Source: Candidatus Roizmanbacteria bacterium RIFCSPLOWO2_01_FULL_40_13
GTDB lineage: Bacteria; Patescibacteriota; Microgenomatia; UBA1406; GWC2-37-13
Reading direction: 5' to 3'
Length of the DNA stretch: 64,000 nucleotides
NCBI GenBank assembly: GCA_001789745.1
Contig: MGAN01000004.1
Span: 1 to 64,000 of the forward strand
Made by a program: the position numbers and the translations under genes. This document shows, piece by piece, positions 27,700 to 36,317 of the stretch; within the stretch, counting starts at the first letter, position 1; every line of letters begins with the position of its first letter. A model generated the notes under the pieces. The model was not told the origin of the DNA and searched no databases. It saw nothing but the letters and a program-made list of their open reading frames with translations.

Positions 27700-28260
27700 A
27701 TGAATAAATCGATCTTCATGAGCATCTTATCAATCTTCACCGTAGTCGTCCTGGTCGGAGGAGTAACTTTTGCCTTATTCTCTTCTGCCGCAAGTAATAA
27801 CAATAATACCTTTGGCGCAGGTACTTTGACTTTAAGCATTAATACTATATCCGGTTCAGGCTCAACCGCTATCTTTTCGGTTTCAGATCTTGATCCGGGA
27901 GAAATGACCGATGTTCAAAAATTGGATTTGAAGAATGGGGGTACGGTTGATGCATCTGATGTTAAATTAACCAGTATCGTCGTAAACCCTACGCCAGCGA
28001 CGCCAAATCTCGGAGATAAACTGATTCTAACCCTTTACAACGACGCAAATAACAATAACTCATATGACGCTGGTATAGATCTTCCCATTGACACTGGCGC
28101 GTTAACATCTTTAGGATGGGCTGATCGTTCACTCGGATTTGGGCTTACAGGTGGAGAATTACATACTATATTTGCAAAAATACTTTTTGATTCAAGCGCT
28201 GATGATGCTTATCAAGGCACAAGTGTTGATTTCGCTTTTAATTTCTTGGCAAGCCAATAA
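27700..28260 (+). CDS. TasA/CalY (camelysin)-like fibre protein
   Basis: MNKSIFMSILSIFTVVVLVGGVTFALFSSAASNNNNTFGAGTLTLSIN...; followed by a SipW-like peptidase. Confidence 0.75.
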   Translation: MNKSIFMSILSIFTVVVLVGGVTFALFSSAASNNNNTFGAGTLTLSINTISGSGSTAIFSVSDLDPGEMTDVQKLDLKNGGTVDASDVKLTSIVVNPTPATPNLGDKLILTLYNDANNNNSYDAGIDLPIDTGALTSLGWADRSLGFGLTGGELHTIFAKILFDSSADDAYQGTSVDFAFNFLASQ

Positions 28261-28273
28261 TTTTCATAATCTG

Positions 28274-28297
28274 AGGAGGGGGCGGTCTTGCCCCCTC
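28274..28297. other. GC-rich hairpin GGAGGGGGC-GGTCTT-GCCCCCTCC
   Basis: 9-bp perfect stem between tasA-like and sipW-like genes; no T-run. Confidence 0.55.
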
Positions 28298-28345
28298 CGC
28301 TACGTCTTAAAATACTATAGTTAGAACAAAACAAAATGTCGTATT

Positions 28346-28407
28346 TGTCATCCTGAACTTGGTTTGGGATCTGATTGATAAGATGCTGAAATAAATTCAG
28401 CATTACA
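28346..28407. repeat. Interspersed palindromic element
   Basis: TGTCATCCTGAACTTGGTTTGGGATCTG...GATGCTGAAATAAATTCAGCATTACA. Confidence 0.7.
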
Positions 28408-28450
28408 TAGAATACAATCTGTCATTTCGTTTTGCGATCGCTATAATTTA

Positions 28451-29002
28451 ATGAAAAACGATTTTTTTCAAAACTTAGGAATAGTTTCTCAAATTTTAGT
28501 CAAATCCGTCATCTTCGGAATCCTGCCTTTTTTAATTTTTATGATGGTTACCTCACGCGTTCCGATATTTGGGATTCAGTCATTCGTAGTTTTGACAGGC
28601 AGTATGGAGCCGCTTCTACCGACCGGCAATATCGTCTTTACTCAAAATTTTGACCTTTATCAAATTGGAGACATAGTCGCTTTTAAAAGCGGAGGTGTTA
28701 ACATCACCCACCGGATAATAGATACTGAAATTAATGATAATCAATTGCTCTACAGAACTCAAGGAGATGCAAACAACAATCCTGATGGTCAATCGATAAC
28801 CGGTGACAAAATATTAGGAAGGGTTTTTTACCATATCCCCTATATTGGCAAATTTGCCATATTCTTACGGACTCTTCCCGGTTTTATAACACTAATCATC
28901 ATTCCTGCTTTGATCTTTATTATCTTGGAAATTATCAATATTAAAAACGAGCTGACAAAAGAGATTGATAAAAAATTAATACGCAAAATACAAACTATTT
29001 AG
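28451..29002 (+). CDS. Signal peptidase I, SipW/archaeal-ER type
   Basis: VLTGSMEPLLPTGNIVF catalytic Ser box; NITHRI His box; TM at both ends. Confidence 0.82.
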   Translation: MKNDFFQNLGIVSQILVKSVIFGILPFLIFMMVTSRVPIFGIQSFVVLTGSMEPLLPTGNIVFTQNFDLYQIGDIVAFKSGGVNITHRIIDTEINDNQLLYRTQGDANNNPDGQSITGDKILGRVFYHIPYIGKFAIFLRTLPGFITLIIIPALIFIILEIINIKNELTKEIDKKLIRKIQTI

Positions 29003-29009
29003 ATTTGAG

Positions 29010-29080
29010 CGTCATTCTGGTTTGTTTACCCCTCGAACCCCGATTCAGTTGGGGGAAGCGAGGTGCAGAATCGTTGTTCC
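29010..29080. repeat. Interspersed palindromic element (partial)
   Basis: GTCATTCTGG...CCCCTCGAACCCCGATTCAG...GCAGAATCG. Confidence 0.5.
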
Positions 29081-29082
29081 TT

Positions 29083-29832
29083 ATGAAACTCAATTATTAT
29101 TTTTTGTTGCTGATTCTATTCATTTTCGCTTTTCTGACCTATAAATTTACCTACTCATACTTTTCTGATTCTGCAACTTTGTCAAATAATATCCTTTCCG
29201 CTTCCGAAACATTTCCCACCCTTACACCAACCCACACTCCAACTCCTCAGATTGCAAACCATATTGTCATAAGTGAGGTACAGATCGACGGAGGGGTAAA
29301 CGAAGCTAACGATTATGATTTTATAGAGCTTTACAATCCAACTTCTTCACCAGAATCACTAAATGGCCTAAGACTTGTTAAAAGAACCAAGAATTCGGAT
29401 TCGGACACAACAATTTTTACTTTTACATCTTCTCATCGTATCAACCCTCATAGCTACTTCTTATGGGGTCATAAGTCTTCAGGCAATAATTTTGCTGATA
29501 GCATATTCGCCGATATATCATCTTCAGATACACTGGCAACGGATAACAGTATAGCTCTTAAAAATGTATCTTCAGGAAAAATTATCGATGCCCTAAGCTG
29601 GGATTCGTCATCATTATCCTACAAGGAGACAACTGAATTTTCTCCCGATCCGGGTGTTAATAAAAGTATGGAGAGAAAAGCCTTATCAGGCTCAACTGTA
29701 GATTCGATGGATTTGGAGGGAAATGATGAGTTTAAGGGTAACGGATACGACTCCGGTGATAATTCAACGGATTTTATTTTACGCTCACTTTCTCAACCAC
29801 AATATAGTACCAGTTCGGCGGAATTACCATGA
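29083..29832 (+). CDS. TasA-like N-terminus plus lamin-tail domain surface protein
   Basis: YSYFSDSATLSNNILSA; HIVISEVQIDGG...DYDFIELYNPTSSPESLNGLRLV LTD signature. Confidence 0.68.
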   Translation: MKLNYYFLLLILFIFAFLTYKFTYSYFSDSATLSNNILSASETFPTLTPTHTPTPQIANHIVISEVQIDGGVNEANDYDFIELYNPTSSPESLNGLRLVKRTKNSDSDTTIFTFTSSHRINPHSYFLWGHKSSGNNFADSIFADISSSDTLATDNSIALKNVSSGKIIDALSWDSSSLSYKETTEFSPDPGVNKSMERKALSGSTVDSMDLEGNDEFKGNGYDSGDNSTDFILRSLSQPQYSTSSAELP

Positions 29833-30911
29833 AAAAACGAATAATGCGCATAATAATTTTACTTTTGCTTATCACGGCAATACTTAATTTAAAAAATGGA
29901 ACGGGTGAATTATTCAAAAGTTCGACTGTTATGGCTGTTGGGGACTTACTGGTTGACTTCCATCGACCCCCCGGAACTCCTATGTTTGACCTTGATAGTA
30001 TGAAGCCGGGAGATAGTGAGGATCATAATGTCGACGTGATAAACGATGGAGCGTTACCTCGATTTATTGCCATACGGGGTATCAAAACTGAAGGCACAAC
30101 AATACTTCCTCTCTTGGAAAATATACTTATTATTCAGATAGCAGAAAATTCCAATATTCTATACGGGCCAAATTCTCTTAAAAGCTTCTTAAATGACAGC
30201 GCCGATGCGGACGGAGTTGCGATCCAGCTTCTCTCTGCCGGAGAACATAAAACATACAATATCAAAATCGACTTTCCTCAGTCCGCAGACAACAACTATC
30301 AGGGAAAGTCGGTAAAGATAAACTTTAGCTTCGGAGAGATCACCGGACAAAATGTAGTGATAAATGAAGTATTCTATAATCCTAAAAAGGACTTCTTCTT
30401 AGGCTTTCTTTTGGATAGACTAGATAAAGACCGTTTCGAAGATGAATATATGGATATCGATAAAAAACGACTATTTAGACGCCAATGGATAGAACTCTAC
30501 AATCCAACAGATCAAGATATTTTGCTCAAAAACTGGAGTCTGACGGACAACTCGGGGAAAAAAATATCAATCCATTTCAATAAAAAAATCAAGGCCCATG
30601 GATTCGTCTTGATTTCAAAAAGTTCATTCCTCTGGTGGTTGACAATACCATGGAAAGGCAATTTTATTCCGATTGGAAGATTTTTCGGTGACGGGTTTGA
30701 TGTTGATGGAGATAGATTAATGCTTAAAGATAGTGAAGGAATTGAGGTAGACCGCATGAGCTGGGGGAGTGACGCATCGGGATTTGATCCTCCCGGAGTT
30801 AATCCCAAAGTCGACAAAGGTCACTCCACCGAACGCCTTGCCCCCGGCTTTGACACCGATTCCTCCTCCGACTGGACCGACCGCTCCTCCCCCTCTCCCG
30901 GTCAAAAATAA
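29829..30911 (+). CDS. TasA/CalY-like plus lamin-tail domain protein
   Basis: KPGDSEDHNVDVINDG; VVINEVFYNP...QWIELYNPTDQDILLKNWSLTDNSGKK. Confidence 0.68.
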   Translation: MKKRIMRIIILLLLITAILNLKNGTGELFKSSTVMAVGDLLVDFHRPPGTPMFDLDSMKPGDSEDHNVDVINDGALPRFIAIRGIKTEGTTILPLLENILIIQIAENSNILYGPNSLKSFLNDSADADGVAIQLLSAGEHKTYNIKIDFPQSADNNYQGKSVKINFSFGEITGQNVVINEVFYNPKKDFFLGFLLDRLDKDRFEDEYMDIDKKRLFRRQWIELYNPTDQDILLKNWSLTDNSGKKISIHFNKKIKAHGFVLISKSSFLWWLTIPWKGNFIPIGRFFGDGFDVDGDRLMLKDSEGIEVDRMSWGSDASGFDPPGVNPKVDKGHSTERLAPGFDTDSSSDWTDRSSPSPGQK

Positions 30912-30930
30912 TCCCCGCACCCACCACACC

Positions 30931-30953
30931 ACTCTAACCTCGTAGGTTAGAGT
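30931..30953. repeat. REP-like palindrome ACTCTAACCT-CGT-AGGTTAGAGT
   Basis: 10-bp perfect stem; exact reverse complement of 31705-31727. Confidence 0.85.
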
Positions 30954-31036
30954 TAGGGCGTTACGACTTATCAAATACGACACTTTGTGGACTATAGTCC
31001 ATTGACAATACGGAAAAAACTATTCTTAATGAAAGC

Positions 31037-31681
31037 ATGAGAAGAGAAAAATTAGTAGAAGGTGAGATTTATCATATTTGTAATAAAAGTATTGCGAACT
31101 TCGGAATATTCAATGACATTAAAAACGGTTACAGATTTCTTTATACTTTAGATTATTATAACAATCAATTAGTAAAAACTAGCTTTTCAGATTATATAAA
31201 TATTAAAGGTAGTTATGAATATGATAATGTTCTTTTTCCCAGAGAAAATTCTTACCTAAAATTTTTGGGATTTTGTATTATGCCAGATCACTATCATTTG
31301 TTAGTAAAAATACTGATTTCTGATTTTTCAAAATATATCAGCAAAGTAGAAAACAGTTATTCGAAGTTTTTTAACGCAAAATTTAAAAGAAAAGGGCCGC
31401 TTTGGCAATCAAGATATCGTTCGGTCTGGATTAAATCAAACGAACAGCTTTTACACGTTCATCGTTATATTCACCTCAATCCAACATCGTCCGGTTTAAC
31501 CAAATATCCGGAAGAGTGGATTCTCTCTTCATACAAAGATTTTATTAAAAATCCTGAATTTCTTAATGAAAAAATAAAAGAAATTTCTATTTCCAATCCT
31601 GTTAAGTATAAAAAATTCGTTGAAGAACAGAGGGATTATCAAAAAAGATTAAAGCAGATCAAAAACCTCCTTTTGGAATAA
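31037..31681 (+). mobile_element. REP-associated tyrosine transposase (RAYT; Y1/IS200-like)
   Basis: HUH motif MPDHYHLL, KRKGPLWQSRYRS, RYIHLNPTSSGL. Confidence 0.88.
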
Positions 31682-31704
31682 TTTGGATTTGCTGCCACAA
31701 TCCA

Positions 31705-31727
31705 ACTCTAACCTACGAGGTTAGAGT
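31705..31727. repeat. REP-like palindrome ACTCTAACCT-ACG-AGGTTAGAGT
   Basis: Inverted copy of 30931-30953. Confidence 0.85.
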
Positions 31728-31790
31728 AGATTGGCAAAGACATTTAATTGTCTCAAGAAGTCTTATTTGATAGAATACTCATTATTGCTT

Positions 31791-31863
31791 GCCAGGGTAG
31801 CCAAGGTGGTCACGGCGCGTGTCTGAAAAACATGAGATCTCAGTTCGACTCTGAGCCCTGGCA
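31791..31863 (+). tRNA. tRNA-Phe (GAA)
   Basis: Acceptor GCCAGGG/CCCTGGC, loop CTGAAAA, T-arm CTCAG-TTCGACT-CTGAG. Confidence 0.88.
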
Positions 31864-31886
31864 CTTTTTTATGAATAAAAAAGTGC
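31861..31886. terminator. Bidirectional terminator-like palindrome GCACTTTTTTAT-GA-ATAAAAAAGTGC
   Basis: 12-bp perfect stem between convergent tRNA-Phe and tRNA-Val, overlapping both 3' ends; T-tract on each strand. Confidence 0.65.
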
Positions 31887-32059
31887 GCCTGTTTGGGTTC
31901 GAACCAAGGACTTCCATCTTACCTGCCCGACGCGCTGTTGTGCGCTTGGATGGGATCGAACCATCGACCCCTACTTTATAAGAGTAGTGCTCTACCACTG
32001 AGCTACAAGCGCTCTAGCAGGCGGGTAAGGATGGCACTCTGCCGCTGAGTTACAGGCGC
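31884..32059 (-). tRNA. tRNA-Val (UAC), interrupted in the anticodon loop by a ~104-nt insert carrying another tRNA
   Basis: 5' exon 32059-32025: GCGCCTG TA ACTC AGCGGCA GAGT G CCATC CTTAC; 3' exon 31920-31884: AA GATGG AAGTC CTTGG TTCGAAC CCAAA CAGGCGC A. Joined loop CTTACAA; acceptor, D and anticodon stems pair; one T-stem mismatch (C-A). Confidence 0.78.
31941..32012 (-). tRNA. tRNA-Ile (UAU), nested in the tRNA-Val anticodon loop
   Basis: GCGCTTG TA GCTC AGTGGTA GAGC A CTACT CTTATAA AGTAG GGGTC GATGG TTCGATC CCATC CAAGCGC A; every stem pairs perfectly; anticodon TAT. Confidence 0.88.
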
Positions 32060-32072
32060 TTATTGAAACTCA

Positions 32073-32078
32073 ATTATA
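32073..32078 (-). promoter_or_regulatory. Candidate -10 box (TATAAT) for the nested tRNA unit
   Basis: TATAAT on minus strand 13 nt upstream of tRNA-Val G1; no convincing -35. Confidence 0.4.
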
Positions 32079-32621
32079 CTACTTTTTCTTCATCAATTTC
32101 TGGTACTCTTTTTCACTGATTAGGTCTTTAGAGGATTCTACCCGATCAACAAACATAACTCCCTCCAAACGATCGTACTCGTGCTGAAAAATTCTGGCTA
32201 CAAAATCTTTATAAACTTATTCAACTTTTTTCCCTTCCCTGGTTATATATGTCACTCTAATCGAAATGTACCGGGGAATTAATCCACGGATTCCCGGAAT
32301 ACTCAAGCATCCCTCCCAATCACTTTTCATCTCTTTGGAAAAAGAGATTATTTTAGGATTAATTATTACCGCAGGTTTCATTTTGGGAGCTTTAGGATAG
32401 CGCGGATTGGGATGAGATGCAGCGATAAAAAGTCTAAGAGATTTATAAATTTGAGGCGCTGCAATACCAACCCCGTCCACTTCCATAACTGTCGCAACCA
32501 AATTATCTATCAACTTCTGCAGATTGGGGTCCTTAATGTTTTTTACGGATTTGGCCCTTTTCCTCAATATCTTGTGCCCAAGTTGAGCAACCTGCAACAA
32601 ATCTCCTTTACTTTTTTTCAT
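32079..32621 (-). pseudogene. def: Peptide deformylase, disrupted by in-frame TAA at 32217-32219
   Basis: GVGIAAPQ and EGCLSIPG motifs precede the stop; the same frame continues VYKDFVARIFQHEYDRLEGVMFVDRV to TAG at 32079. Usual QHExDHLxG reads QHEYDRLEG. Confidence 0.8.
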
Positions 32622-32696
32622 ATTTATTTTTCAAAAAAATATTCTAAAACATTGCCAAAACTATATAGAAATTGCTTAAGATAAAATCAATATTAT

Positions 32697-33209
32697 TCAT
32701 TCTTTAAACTTTTTATAAATATTTTTGTAAACAAAATGGAAAGCGCCTCCGAATATTTTCGGATCGGTTTTCATTAGTCTTTTAATTTCCTCTTTAGTAA
32801 AATATTTAAAATCTTTAGTCTCGTCGCTTAAGACCACTTTGTCATCGGAATAAATTTCAAACAAATTGAAATAATGGTTTTCTCGTCTGCCGATCACGAA
32901 TCGGTTATAAATTCCTCTTCCGATGAATTTGAATTTATAATCTTCTAATCCAACCTCTTCAAATGCTTCCCGCTTAAGCGCGTCTTCAAGAGATTCACCG
33001 GCCTGTACATGACCTCCGATCGGTGACACGTATTGGTGTTTATCCTGTTTATGTTCTGAAGGGACAAACAGCAACCACTCATCTTTTAAATTTATAATTT
33101 CGGATATTACACATCGGTGGAGAAGTCCCTTATCGTGCGCTTCCTTTTTGGAAGTCTTATATAGCGTCTTATTGTTTTCATCAACGATATCGACCATCTC
33201 ATCTTTCAT
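32697..33209 (-). CDS. NUDIX hydrolase, isopentenyl-diphosphate isomerase-like
   Basis: VDIVDENNKTLYKTSKKEAHDKGLLHRCV and GGHVQAGESLEDALKREAFEEVG. ORF trimmed, since its upstream part overlaps tRNA-Ala and tRNA-Arg. Confidence 0.78.
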   Translation of the reverse strand: MKDEMVDIVDENNKTLYKTSKKEAHDKGLLHRCVISEIINLKDEWLLFVPSEHKQDKHQYVSPIGGHVQAGESLEDALKREAFEEVGLEDYKFKFIGRGIYNRFVIGRRENHYFNLFEIYSDDKVVLSDETKDFKYFTKEEIKRLMKTDPKIFGGAFHFVYKNIYKKFKE

Positions 33210-33278
33210 AGGTGAAACGTAATGAATCTTCGTCTTAAACGATCCAACTGCGTTTAATTTACGAAGTGAATTATTACG

Positions 33279-33352
33279 TGGTGGACCTACCGAGAATTGA
33301 ACTCGGATCCCTGCAATGCGAATGCAGTATTCTGCCGTTGAACCATAGGCCC
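33279..33352 (-). tRNA. tRNA-Ala (CGC)
   Basis: Acceptor GGGCCTA/TAGGTCC with G3:U70, loop TTCGCAT, encoded CCA. Confidence 0.92.
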
Positions 33353-33356
33353 AATG

Positions 33357-33428
33357 TGCCTCTAGAGGGAATTGAACCCCCATATCCAGTTCCGGAAACT
33401 GACGCTCTGTCCATTGAGCTATAGAGGC
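33357..33428 (-). tRNA. tRNA-Arg (CCG)
   Basis: Acceptor GCCTCTA/TAGAGGC, loop TTCCGGA. Confidence 0.9.
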
Positions 33429-34207
33429 AATAAAAAAATAAGCAGTATTATTATAACAAGCACAAGGCGGTAATAGGCGAAGACGACCAGGGTATTTTTT
33501 TGTAAAAAATCAATGAACCATTTGACTATAAAATATGAAGATATAAAAGCTGATATAAAACCTACAGTTAAAAGTAAAAAATTATTAGAGTAATTTACTA
33601 TCACTGACCTCATTTTGTACAGATCATAAAAAGCCGCGGCAAATACGGTCGGAACCGAAAGCAAAAAGGAAAAATAGGCAGAGTCTTTTCTCTTATATCC
33701 CAATATCATCATGCCCGTAATGACTGCTCCGGCGCGTGAAACTCCGGGAATAATGGCCAGCGATTGAACTAAACCTATGATTATGGCTTGTTTATAGTCC
33801 AAATTTTTTATATTTTTTTTTAGTTTGATTTTTTCATACTTTACCAGCTTTTCCACCAGCAAAAAAACCGCTGCAACCGCGGCAAAAATTCCCAGCATCA
33901 AAAACCGGCTTTCAAAGAGTATGTTTTTGATGAATTTGTAGAGAATAAACCCGATTAAAGCCGTTGGAATAAAGGAAAAAAATACCCGCTTCATCAATTC
34001 TTTGGATTTAACGACGTCAGAAAAATAGAGCAGTATAACGGATAAGATCGCGCCTGACTGAATAAAAACTTCAAATAATTTAATGAAATCATTTTGTTGA
34101 ATTCCCAGTAACTTTGATGTGAAGATTAAATGAAAAGTTGATGATATAGGCAAAAACTCCGTTATCCCCTCCACCACACCTAGTATCGCGGCTTGAATAA
34201 TATTCAT
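33419..34207 (-). CDS. uppP: Undecaprenyl-diphosphatase
   Basis: GVVEGITEFLPISSTFHL and IPGVSRAGAVITGM motifs. Confidence 0.92.
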   Translation of the reverse strand: MNIIQAAILGVVEGITEFLPISSTFHLIFTSKLLGIQQNDFIKLFEVFIQSGAILSVILLYFSDVVKSKELMKRVFFSFIPTALIGFILYKFIKNILFESRFLMLGIFAAVAAVFLLVEKLVKYEKIKLKKNIKNLDYKQAIIIGLVQSLAIIPGVSRAGAVITGMMILGYKRKDSAYFSFLLSVPTVFAAAFYDLYKMRSVIVNYSNNFLLLTVGFISAFISSYFIVKWFIDFLQKNTLVVFAYYRLVLVIIILLIFLLPL

Positions 34208-34217
34208 TTCCGGTTAC

Positions 34218-34311
34218 GTCATTCTGAAAAAGCAGTATGATTAAAAAGTCTATCACGAAGGCGATTTTCTGAAATAAAATCAGGGATCCTTCGCTTTCGC
34301 TCAGGATGACA
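34218..34311. repeat. Interspersed palindromic element
   Basis: GTCATTCTGAAAAAG...CTTTCGCTCAGGATGACA. Confidence 0.65.
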
Positions 34312-34332
34312 TAATAAAGTATAATACATAGA

Positions 34333-35451
34333 ATGAAAATAGCCTTGGTTCATGATCAGTTGCAGGAGTTCGGCGGGGCCGAAAGAGTCTTGGTAGCCCT
34401 AAAAAAAATCTTCCCGGCAGCTGATGTTTTTACATCTTTTTATAATCCTGTTACGCTCGGTGTTAACAATCGACATTTTAAAAACTGGAAAATCGATACA
34501 TCTTGGGCAGATAAATTGCCTTTGATGAAAAAACTTCACTCTCCTTTGCGGTTTATAATTCCCTGGGTGTGGGAAAGTTTTGATTTTACAGATTATGATT
34601 TAGTTATTTCCTCATCGGGATCCTACATGTCCAAAGGAATCATAACCAGACCTGAGGCTTTACATATTTGTTACCTGCACCATCAACCTCGCTATCTTTA
34701 CTTTTATCAGACGGCAATCGAATGGCAGAAATACTTACCCGTAAAAATCTACGGACATCTGATTAATCACGGTCTTCGCCAGTGGGATTATATTTCATCC
34801 CAAAGAGTCGATTACTTCATCGCCAACTCCGAAGAAACCAAAAGGCGAATCCGCAAATTCTACCGCCGCGACTCATCCGTCATCTATCCTCCAGTAAATA
34901 TTCCAAAAAAAATTGCTACCGACTACCGACAACCGAATGCCGAATACTTTCTTACGGTCTCCCGTCTCGCCCGTGCCAAACAGATTGGCATTCTGATTCA
35001 GGCGGCAAATCAAATGAAATTTGATTTAAAAATTGTCGGTTCCGGCCGGGATCAATCTTATTTAAAATCTCTTGCCGGTCCAACCGTTGAGTTTTTGGGT
35101 AATTTGCCGGATGAAAAATTACCCGCACTTTTTCAAAATGCCAAAGCGTTCCTTTTCTCGGCAATTGATGAAGAATTCGGTATAGCCGCAGTTGAAGCGA
35201 TGGGATACGGTTTACCCGTTATAACTTACGCTTCCGGGGGTTTGAAAGAAACCGTCAGACATGGTCTTAATGGTTTTCTTTTTGATGAATTGAATCCGTC
35301 ATCGCTCATTACTCAAATAAAAAAACTGGAGGGTTTAACTAAAAATAAATACCTGCAAATGCGCAAAATGGCAAGAAACGAATCGGAAAAATATAGTTTT
35401 GAAAAATTTAAACAACAGTTATTAAAATTTATTAGTAAATTCAGGAATTAA
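34333..35451 (+). CDS. Glycosyltransferase family 4
   Basis: QEFGGAERVLVALKKIFP; LTVSRLARAKQI; DEEFGIAAVEAMGYGLPV. Confidence 0.85.
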   Translation: MKIALVHDQLQEFGGAERVLVALKKIFPAADVFTSFYNPVTLGVNNRHFKNWKIDTSWADKLPLMKKLHSPLRFIIPWVWESFDFTDYDLVISSSGSYMSKGIITRPEALHICYLHHQPRYLYFYQTAIEWQKYLPVKIYGHLINHGLRQWDYISSQRVDYFIANSEETKRRIRKFYRRDSSVIYPPVNIPKKIATDYRQPNAEYFLTVSRLARAKQIGILIQAANQMKFDLKIVGSGRDQSYLKSLAGPTVEFLGNLPDEKLPALFQNAKAFLFSAIDEEFGIAAVEAMGYGLPVITYASGGLKETVRHGLNGFLFDELNPSSLITQIKKLEGLTKNKYLQMRKMARNESEKYSFEKFKQQLLKFISKFRN

Positions 35452-35504
35452 CTTTACGGATGCTTCGATTAATCGATTAATTAGAGCATTCATAAATAAA
35501 ATCT

Positions 35505-36317
35505 TTGCCCGAACTTCCGGAAGTTGAAACAATTAGGCGCGGATTGGAAAAACATCTGGTCGGTAAAAAAATAAATGAACTTGAGATTCTTGATCTTAAA
35601 CTGTCAAAAGAAAACCTATCTCATGTTAAAAGTGTAAAAGTTACTACCGTCAGACGCTTTGGTAAGGGACTCGTTATTGAACTGGATAATGAATACTCAA
35701 TTGCTGTCCATATCAAGATGACCGGCCAACTCATATTTAAACAAAATAAACAGGATATCCTTCCCGATAAACATACCCGGGCTATATTTAAATTAGAGAA
35801 TGCCGCCGTTCTTTACTTCAATGATATCCGCAGATTCGGCTGGATAAAAATTTTAAAAACTGATGAGGTCGGCAGGCTTCCTTTTTTCAAAAATCTTGGT
35901 CCCGAACCGTTTAAAAATCTTACTCCCCGATATTTACAAGAAATTTCCCAAAAATCCAATTTACCGATCAAGACTCTGATTATGGATCAAAGAAAAATCA
36001 GCGGTATCGGAAATATTTATGCTAACGATGCGCTAAATCTTGCCAAAATAAACCCCTCCAGAAAAGCAAAATTCTTGACAGAAAAAGAGACGAACAAACT
36101 ATATCTGTCGATTCTTGAAGTTTTAAACCGCGGTTTAAAATATGGAGGTTCTTCCGAAGTTAATTATGTTAACGCGGACGGGAATAAAGGAAAATACCAG
36201 AATCATTCTTTTGTTTATAACCGTGAAGGAGAAAATTGTCTCAACTGCGGTAGTAAAATTAAAAAAACAAAAGTCTCCGGACGGGGTACATACTTTTGTG
36301 AATCTTGTCAGAAATAA
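35505..36317 (+). CDS. mutM: Formamidopyrimidine-DNA glycosylase (TTG start)
   Basis: MPELPEVETIRRGLE; KISGIGNIYANDAL; C-terminal CLNCGSKIKKTKVSGRGTYFCESCQ. Confidence 0.93.
   Translation: MPELPEVETIRRGLEKHLVGKKINELEILDLKLSKENLSHVKSVKVTTVRRFGKGLVIELDNEYSIAVHIKMTGQLIFKQNKQDILPDKHTRAIFKLENAAVLYFNDIRRFGWIKILKTDEVGRLPFFKNLGPEPFKNLTPRYLQEISQKSNLPIKTLIMDQRKISGIGNIYANDALNLAKINPSRKAKFLTEKETNKLYLSILEVLNRGLKYGGSSEVNYVNADGNKGKYQNHSFVYNREGENCLNCGSKIKKTKVSGRGTYFCESCQK

Follow-up and report, generated by a model that had tools for sequence, protein, structure and literature searches.

In the window analysed here (the whole stretch of 64,000 nucleotides), two tRNA genes lie one within the other at 31884-32059 of the minus strand, and the sequence, coordinates and strand that the initial annotation had given for them were correct on re-check. 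The inner gene is an intact, perfectly paired tRNA-Ile(UAU), on which ARAGORN and Rfam agree (31940/31941-32012, 75.1 bits), and, as first described, it sits precisely within the anticodon loop of the second tRNA gene, the flanking halves of which pair up as one tRNA (Table 1). Within the insert, the inner tRNA is preceded by a 13-nt left arm and followed by 19 nt of right linker and arm, a stretch that has conserved relatives (GCGCGGCGGGCAGG). In the predicted fold the arms pair with each other, prolonging the anticodon stem into one long helix with a 1-nt bulge, a 5-bp helix and a small internal loop at the junction, and the arm duplex is not stronger than that of shuffled arms (p 0.33).

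A TATAAT box similar to the one upstream of the outer tRNA is found upstream of the tRNA-Ile(UAU) gene in congeners as well, and the box in the window likely drives transcription of the inner tRNA, which itself is preceded by a linker of only 13 nt. Where the tRNA-Ile and tRNA-Phe genes converge, their 3' ends make up the inverted repeat downstream (12 bp), which possibly acts as a bidirectional terminator common to both. Two further observations concern the surroundings. The peptide deformylase frame is interrupted by an in-frame TAA (32217-32219, minus strand), either a nonsense mutation or a sequence error, and resumes past it with VARIFQHEYDRLEGVMFVDRVES, the expected catalytic HExxD-type region. 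An IS200-like Y1 transposase (PF01797) is encoded at 31037-31681 on the plus strand, about 110 nt from tRNA-Phe; it is one of two matches in the genome, possibly a REP-associated transposase.

Table 1. Features of the nested tRNA locus (window coordinates).
Feature	Position	Strand	Sequence or basis
Putative promoter-like -10 box (TATAAT), upstream of outer tRNA	32073..32078	-	Sequence
Outer tRNA-Ile(UAU) 5' half, ends at anticodon base 35	32026..32059	-	GCGCCTGTAACTCAGCGGCAGAGTGCCATCCTTA
104-nt insert, between anticodon bases 35/36 of outer tRNA	31922..32025	-	Empty sites of congeners read CTTATAA
Left arm of insert	32013..32025	-	CCCGCCTGCTAGA, a relative of conserved CCCGCCTGCCAAAGC
Inner tRNA-Ile(UAU), intact	31941..32012	-	ARAGORN and Rfam
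Right linker and arm, complements left arm	31922..31940	-	CAACAGCGCGTCGGGCAGG; predicted fold
Outer tRNA-Ile(UAU) 3' half, anticodon base 36 to discriminator	31884..31921	-	C49-A65 mismatch in T stem
Perfect inverted repeat between convergent outer tRNA-Ile and tRNA-Phe	31861..31886	.	Similar sequence in G001

Identity of the outer gene and the insertion point

The edge of the insert is ambiguous by one base, the outer gene reading as tRNA-Val(UAC) if it is joined as CTTAC/AA and as tRNA-Ile(UAU) if it is joined as CTTA/TAA. The former was the initial proposal and it is not borne out by the relatives. BLAST alignments with the uninterrupted genes of six genomes (G002, G004, G061, G066, G008, and G071), all of them tRNA-Ile(UAU), break between query positions 85 and 190, that is at CTTA/TAA, and G022 likewise has an uninterrupted tRNA-Ile(UAU) gene. 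In the congeners G004 and G002 this gene is found at the same locus, downstream of the same peptide deformylase gene end; the outer 5' half aligns with it without gaps as far as CTTA, where the matches end to restart at TAA, the relative being gapless. The neighbourhood of tRNA-Ile(UAU) is also usually the same across relatives, with Arg(CCG) and Ala(CGC) before it and Phe and Gly after it. Synteny thus rules out tRNA-Val(UAC) as the outer gene, and the intact tRNA-Val(UAC) elsewhere that the initial annotation had suggested looking for is indeed present in the genome (G000:C9:17189-17261), together with Val(GAC) and two Val(CAC). The inner gene, on the other hand, is the sole intact tRNA-Ile(UAU) among the 37 tRNAs found in the source assembly (G000), a draft of 21 contigs that is 89% complete.

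Because the alignments with congeners break at CTTA/TAA, we place the 104-nt insert between bases 35 and 36. The exact insertion into a host with all its stems intact, as originally described, thus stands as regards the precision of the site, while the point is not 36/37 and the stems are not all intact, since the outer T stem has one mismatch. No target-site duplication is seen at the insert when it is compared with the uninterrupted sites of the congeners. The view that a group I intron would not fit into so short an insert was upheld: a gathering scan with Rfam of window positions 28000-36000 gave matches to tRNAs alone and none to a group I core, and 72 of the 104 nt are tRNA, by which such an intron is ruled out.

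Nested tRNA genes across the Patescibacteria

The initial annotation had also proposed a check of relatives, in which the nested layout does recur. We have collected 42 nested loci in about 39 genomes in a census of Patescibacteria, a number that is a lower bound because the searches require particular sequences. They cover 15 isoacceptors, mainly Ile(UAU) with 13 loci and Ile(GAU) with six, followed by Met(CAU) and Val(CAC) with four each, Val(GAC), Arg(UCU), Thr(UGU), and Thr(CGU) with two each, and Val(UAC), Arg(GCG), Thr(GGU), Glu(UUC), Gly(CCC), Ala(GGC), and Phe(GAA) with one each. Scanning GTDB genomes for CTTACC followed by tRNA-Ile(UAU) retrieved the same layout, in varying states of preservation, from Gottesmanbacteria, Woesebacteria, Portnoybacteria, Colwellbacteria, Jorgensenbacteria, and others. 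A pattern that is independent of the arms (two successive D arms spaced more closely than tandem tRNAs allow) retrieved 11 nested pairs from 384 genomes of the class, against 0 for the reversed-pattern control, and additional nested cases from four of 366 genomes of the phylum. The inner tRNA has the direction of the outer one in every nested locus, whichever way the arms point, and the joined outer anticodon equals the inner one in all curated cases but two (G035 and G358, which differ at base 34), the outer identity being putative in strongly decayed loci.

A second nested tRNA is present in the same genome as the window (G000:C17:20698-20822; L012, L219), where the 5' half of an outer tRNA-Arg(GCG) is followed by the arm CCCGCCTGCCAAAGC and an intact tRNA-Arg(GCG), the outer 3' half being lost. 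Repeated nesting or duplicated halves were seen for Ala(GGC) in G469 (L218) and Met(CAU) in G492 (L287); in both, as in L054 (G066), one tRNA lies inside the remains of two others. L055 (G092) is unlike the other cases: in this nested Ile(UAU), TTATAA is present three times and there are two differing 3' halves, one of which fits the outer acceptor stem and the other the outer anticodon stem.

Complementary arms able to form a hairpin are found in most nested loci, the window itself not rising above the shuffled level, and they occur in both orientations. Of 11 exact occurrences of the conserved left-arm form CCCGCCTGCCAAAGC in a phylum sample, 10 fall within or next to a nested tRNA. Viruses are ruled out as carriers of the element, given that none of 50 exact left-arm copies in IMG/VR viral contigs is near a tRNA. 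Copies of the left arm without tRNA cargo exist too (L197, L199). The arm CCTGCCCGC gave 291 hits in 24 nested genomes vs. 55 for its reversed control, and only seven vs. two in G000, so that its dispersed character is weaker than that of the arms in two other genomes, G492 and G505. In these, the nested Met locus is bounded by CCCCGTTAGAAAT and ATTTCTAACGGGG, which recur at several further places in each genome, mostly as inverted pairs, forming intergenic elements of 72-116 nt, often at TATA or TTA sites and with interiors that are not tRNAs. Since the same arms bound these dispersed, cargo-less elements, the nested tRNA insert looks like the tRNA-carrying member of a mini-element family. 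No long autonomous version of the G492 element was found in the 3-kb neighbourhoods examined. The insertion points, taking nested and intergenic copies together in a list of 31 put together by hand, share A at -1 (26/31) and T at +1 (25/31).

Some of these hairpins touch tRNA genes in other ways. At L313 (G505:C3) a mini-element with the arms CCCCGTTAGAAAT/ATTTCTAACGGGG reaches into the beginning of a tRNA-Leu gene, and its right end provides the first acceptor-stem bases (GGGGCGAG). Cargo-less hairpins are also seen in the outer T loop at L035 (G041), L076 (Colwellbacteria), L216 (G598), and L064 (G093), where they hit outer tRNAs that were already disrupted, as if tRNA loops were preferred targets for hairpin insertions.

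Origin of the inner tRNA and fate of the outer one

The inner tRNA of the window is identical at 71 of 72 positions to the uninterrupted tRNA-Ile(UAU) of G063, which belongs to another family and whose copy is not flanked by such arms, and at only 52 of 72 to its own outer tRNA, which in turn is about 90% identical to those of the congeners. A similar affinity is seen for the inner tRNA of G052, with 97% identity to that of G015, from another genus. In the congener G003 there is a single tRNA at the same locus, identical to that of G017 (again another genus), the outer halves are gone, and the tRNA is preceded by GCTGTAGA, which is like the end of the window left arm (CTGCTAGA); it may be a resolved case. 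The inner tRNA-Ile of the window was apparently acquired from another lineage, although tRNAs span only 72 nt and such affinities are therefore strong hints rather than proof. Simple duplication of the resident tRNA is ruled out, as inner and outer genes differ at about 20 of 72 positions, in different self-paired stems, with the inner gene matching other lineages.

The outer tRNAs are often broken, whereas the inner ones remain intact. Among the 16 best-preserved cases (a curated set with junctions set by hand, which favours well-preserved loci) the mean number of stem mismatches is 0.88 in the outer vs. 0.29 in the inner tRNAs, and in about half of the cases the outer stems remain free of mismatches; letting ARAGORN join the outer halves by brute force was too permissive and was not used for this comparison. 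In many loci outside it the outer 3' half is gone, or additional hairpins sit in the T, D, or anticodon loop. The 3' half is missing or broken in G019, G309, G224, Portnoybacteria, the Arg(GCG) locus of the window genome and G505, and where it is lost the 5' half tends to persist. Base 34 of the outer anticodon is altered in G035 (L057, AAT vs. GAT) and G358 (L277, AGT vs. TGT), consistent with relaxed selection. A single insertion is common to G492 and G505, which are syntenic around it; their flanking DNA is about 70-75% identical, the inner tRNA is the same in both and the outer T arm is destroyed in G505. The arms and the outer 5' half are also better conserved than the flanking DNA in this pair, and for this reason a leader role of the 5' half is possible.

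Proposed replacement of resident tRNA genes

We consider it probable that a mini-element bounded by inverted repeats breaks the resident tRNA gene and supplies a foreign replacement, the outer halves being a decaying relic. The element would be a miniature mobile type (REPIN/MITE-like), with no coding capacity and a target preference for A/T as in TTA/TAA, and by entering the anticodon loop of the resident tRNA-Ile(UAU) it would break that gene. What would keep the cell alive is the cargo itself, a full foreign tRNA-Ile(UAU) that has the orientation of the disrupted gene and would be expressed from the promoter of that gene. Polycistronic tRNA transcripts are generally cleaved into tRNAs by RNase P and 3' processing, and RNase P together with the ordinary 3'-end tRNA processing enzymes could cut out the inner tRNA in the same manner. 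The outer halves would from then on serve as the leader and trailer of the new tRNA and would degenerate, beginning with the 3' half, and the net outcome would be the replacement of the resident gene by a foreign one. As the inner gene lacks room for a promoter of its own, an insertion into a single-copy tRNA gene would be lethal unless it brought the same tRNA in the same direction, and this survival filter would leave only the matching isoacceptor and direction. The recent disruption of the outer gene that the initial annotation had offered as an option comes nearer to this than ligation does, but it overlooks that the insert carries its own replacement tRNA.

Several points weigh against replacement by a mobile element. 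No transposase or recombinase is linked to the element, its arms are not the same from one lineage to another, and movement of a unit has not been observed. The matching isoacceptor of the cargo is accounted for only by survival bias, the affinity of the inner tRNA is measured over 72 nt, and the arm duplex of the window does not exceed shuffled arms. The fully paired half of the curated outer tRNAs and the conservation in G492 and G505 would fit a function of the outer transcript. The Y1 transposase gene next to the locus is a lead, but mobilisation by a neighbouring Y1/RAYT transposase is rejected for want of an association across genomes: such a transposase is found in 23/32 nested genomes and 24/32 controls, nine nested ones having none at all.

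An explanation without any mobile unit, which we regard as unlikely, is that, during recombination with DNA that had entered from a related species, repair or template switching placed a copy of the donor's tRNA in a hairpin of the tRNA loop. The lack of a mobilising enzyme and the variation of the arms by lineage, which fits dispersed hairpin repeats, speak for it, and so does the resemblance of the inner tRNAs to ordinary genes of other species, the G063 copy having no arms. However, a cell should not survive if a single-copy tRNA gene received nothing but a hairpin, and the hairpin would thus have to come together with the donor tRNA; the junctions at the arm ends, along with the A/T target common to intergenic elements, suggest that a bounded unit was inserted.

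A spliced outer tRNA is unlikely on the sequence evidence. In this split-tRNA or intron-like scheme, the release-and-ligate route of the initial annotation, the inner tRNA would be freed by RNase P and 3' processing while the arms hold the halves for a ligase to join, giving two tRNA-Ile(UAU). The long helix predicted from the arms and the anticodon stem would suit it, as would the conservation of arms and 5' half between G492 and G505 and the full pairing, with the same anticodon after joining, seen in about half of the curated outer tRNAs. RtcB, however, was not found in the 89%-complete G000 and is absent from 28 of 32 nested genomes, by which RtcB-dependent splicing is rejected; the predicted fold has no 3-4-3 motif, that is, no bulge-helix-bulge at the exon-intron junction; and the arms point either way. 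Insertion points vary among tRNAs (34/35, 35/36, 36/37, 37/38, and the D arm), and outer tRNAs have lost their 3' halves in many loci, gained insertions or changed their anticodon (AAT in G035, AGT in G358). We therefore hold the split-tRNA scheme to be quite improbable, and its variant in which the outer halves are rejoined by an RtcB-independent route, so that two tRNAs would come from one nested gene, to be slightly more so.

There is an even smaller chance that the outer halves are kept for a role as RNA, for instance as a structured leader presenting or insulating the inner tRNA for its processing, without ever forming a tRNA themselves. The tendency of the 5' half to stay while the 3' half disappears and the conserved arms and 5' half of G492 and G505 would agree with this, but G003 appears to have dropped the outer 5' half, and retention of this half is expected anyway, as it lies between the promoter and the inner tRNA. 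An assembly chimera or chance resemblance can practically be discarded in spite of the 21-contig draft, because the same architecture recurs in about 39 independent genomes, including an insertion common to the syntenic congeners G492 and G505, and because the left arm is in or beside nested tRNAs in 10 of 11 occurrences vs. 0 of 50 near a tRNA in viral contigs, and the arm-independent pattern gave 11 nested pairs vs. 0 for its reversed control.

The replacement by a tRNA-bearing mini-element resembles tRNA-dependent lysogeny, in which an integrating mycobacteriophage breaks an essential tRNA gene and supplies a tRNA of the same isotype (Guerrero-Bustamante and Hatfull 2024, PMC10865867); here too the host gene is disrupted and the insert provides the same isotype, outer and inner tRNAs both being Ile(UAU). 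In the phage system, however, a whole prophage enters by means of a tyrosine integrase and about 10 bp of shared core, whereas the present insert is 104 nt long, has no gene but the tRNA and no room for a protein gene, and similar inserts occupy a variety of tRNA loops, each tRNA being enclosed in the broken gene and presumably dependent on its promoter. REPINs are REP doublets forming hairpins (Bertels and Rainey 2011, PMC3116915), and like them and bacterial MITEs the elements described here are short, non-coding, bounded by inverted repeats and able to form hairpins, with dispersed copies in G492 and G505. They differ in their apparently functional tRNA cargo, in a site within a tRNA gene, in arms that vary between lineages and, compared with REPINs, in having no association with a RAYT/Y1 transposase. 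The archaeal and eukaryotic tRNA introns and archaeal split tRNAs (reviewed in PMC4090602) offer a third parallel, as in such introns the gene is interrupted mostly in the anticodon loop and its flanks pair, but the nested genes show no bulge-helix-bulge, their insertion points vary, their exons decay, RtcB is missing from most of the genomes, and what would be the "intron" is another tRNA gene of matching kind. Among bacterial tRNA genes, group I introns (reviewed in PMC3984707) likewise occupy the anticodon loop, but the present insert of 104 nt has no group I core. We have found no description of nested tRNA genes in the literature searched, which covered few subscription journals or preprints, and neither tRNA-dependent lysogeny nor REPINs/MITEs covers a mini-element whose whole cargo is a tRNA placed inside the tRNA gene that it has broken.

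For genome annotation, this layout means that tRNA predictions in candidate phyla can hide nested genes or miscall interrupted tRNAs as another kind. Genes for tRNAs are usually thought hard to lose or exchange, since each one is essential in a small genome. The nested layout offers a concrete and recurrent path for swapping a resident tRNA for a foreign one, with fresh, decaying, doubly nested and apparently resolved intermediates seen in present-day genomes. Our confidence is evenly balanced on the broader proposal that Patescibacteria host a class of tRNA-replacing mini-elements, a minimal "addictive" DNA driving the horizontal turnover of single-copy tRNA genes. If this is true, their sole cargo would be a tRNA made indispensable by the element's own insertion and, provided that they move as units, they would represent a minimal mobile element that persists by making its cargo essential.
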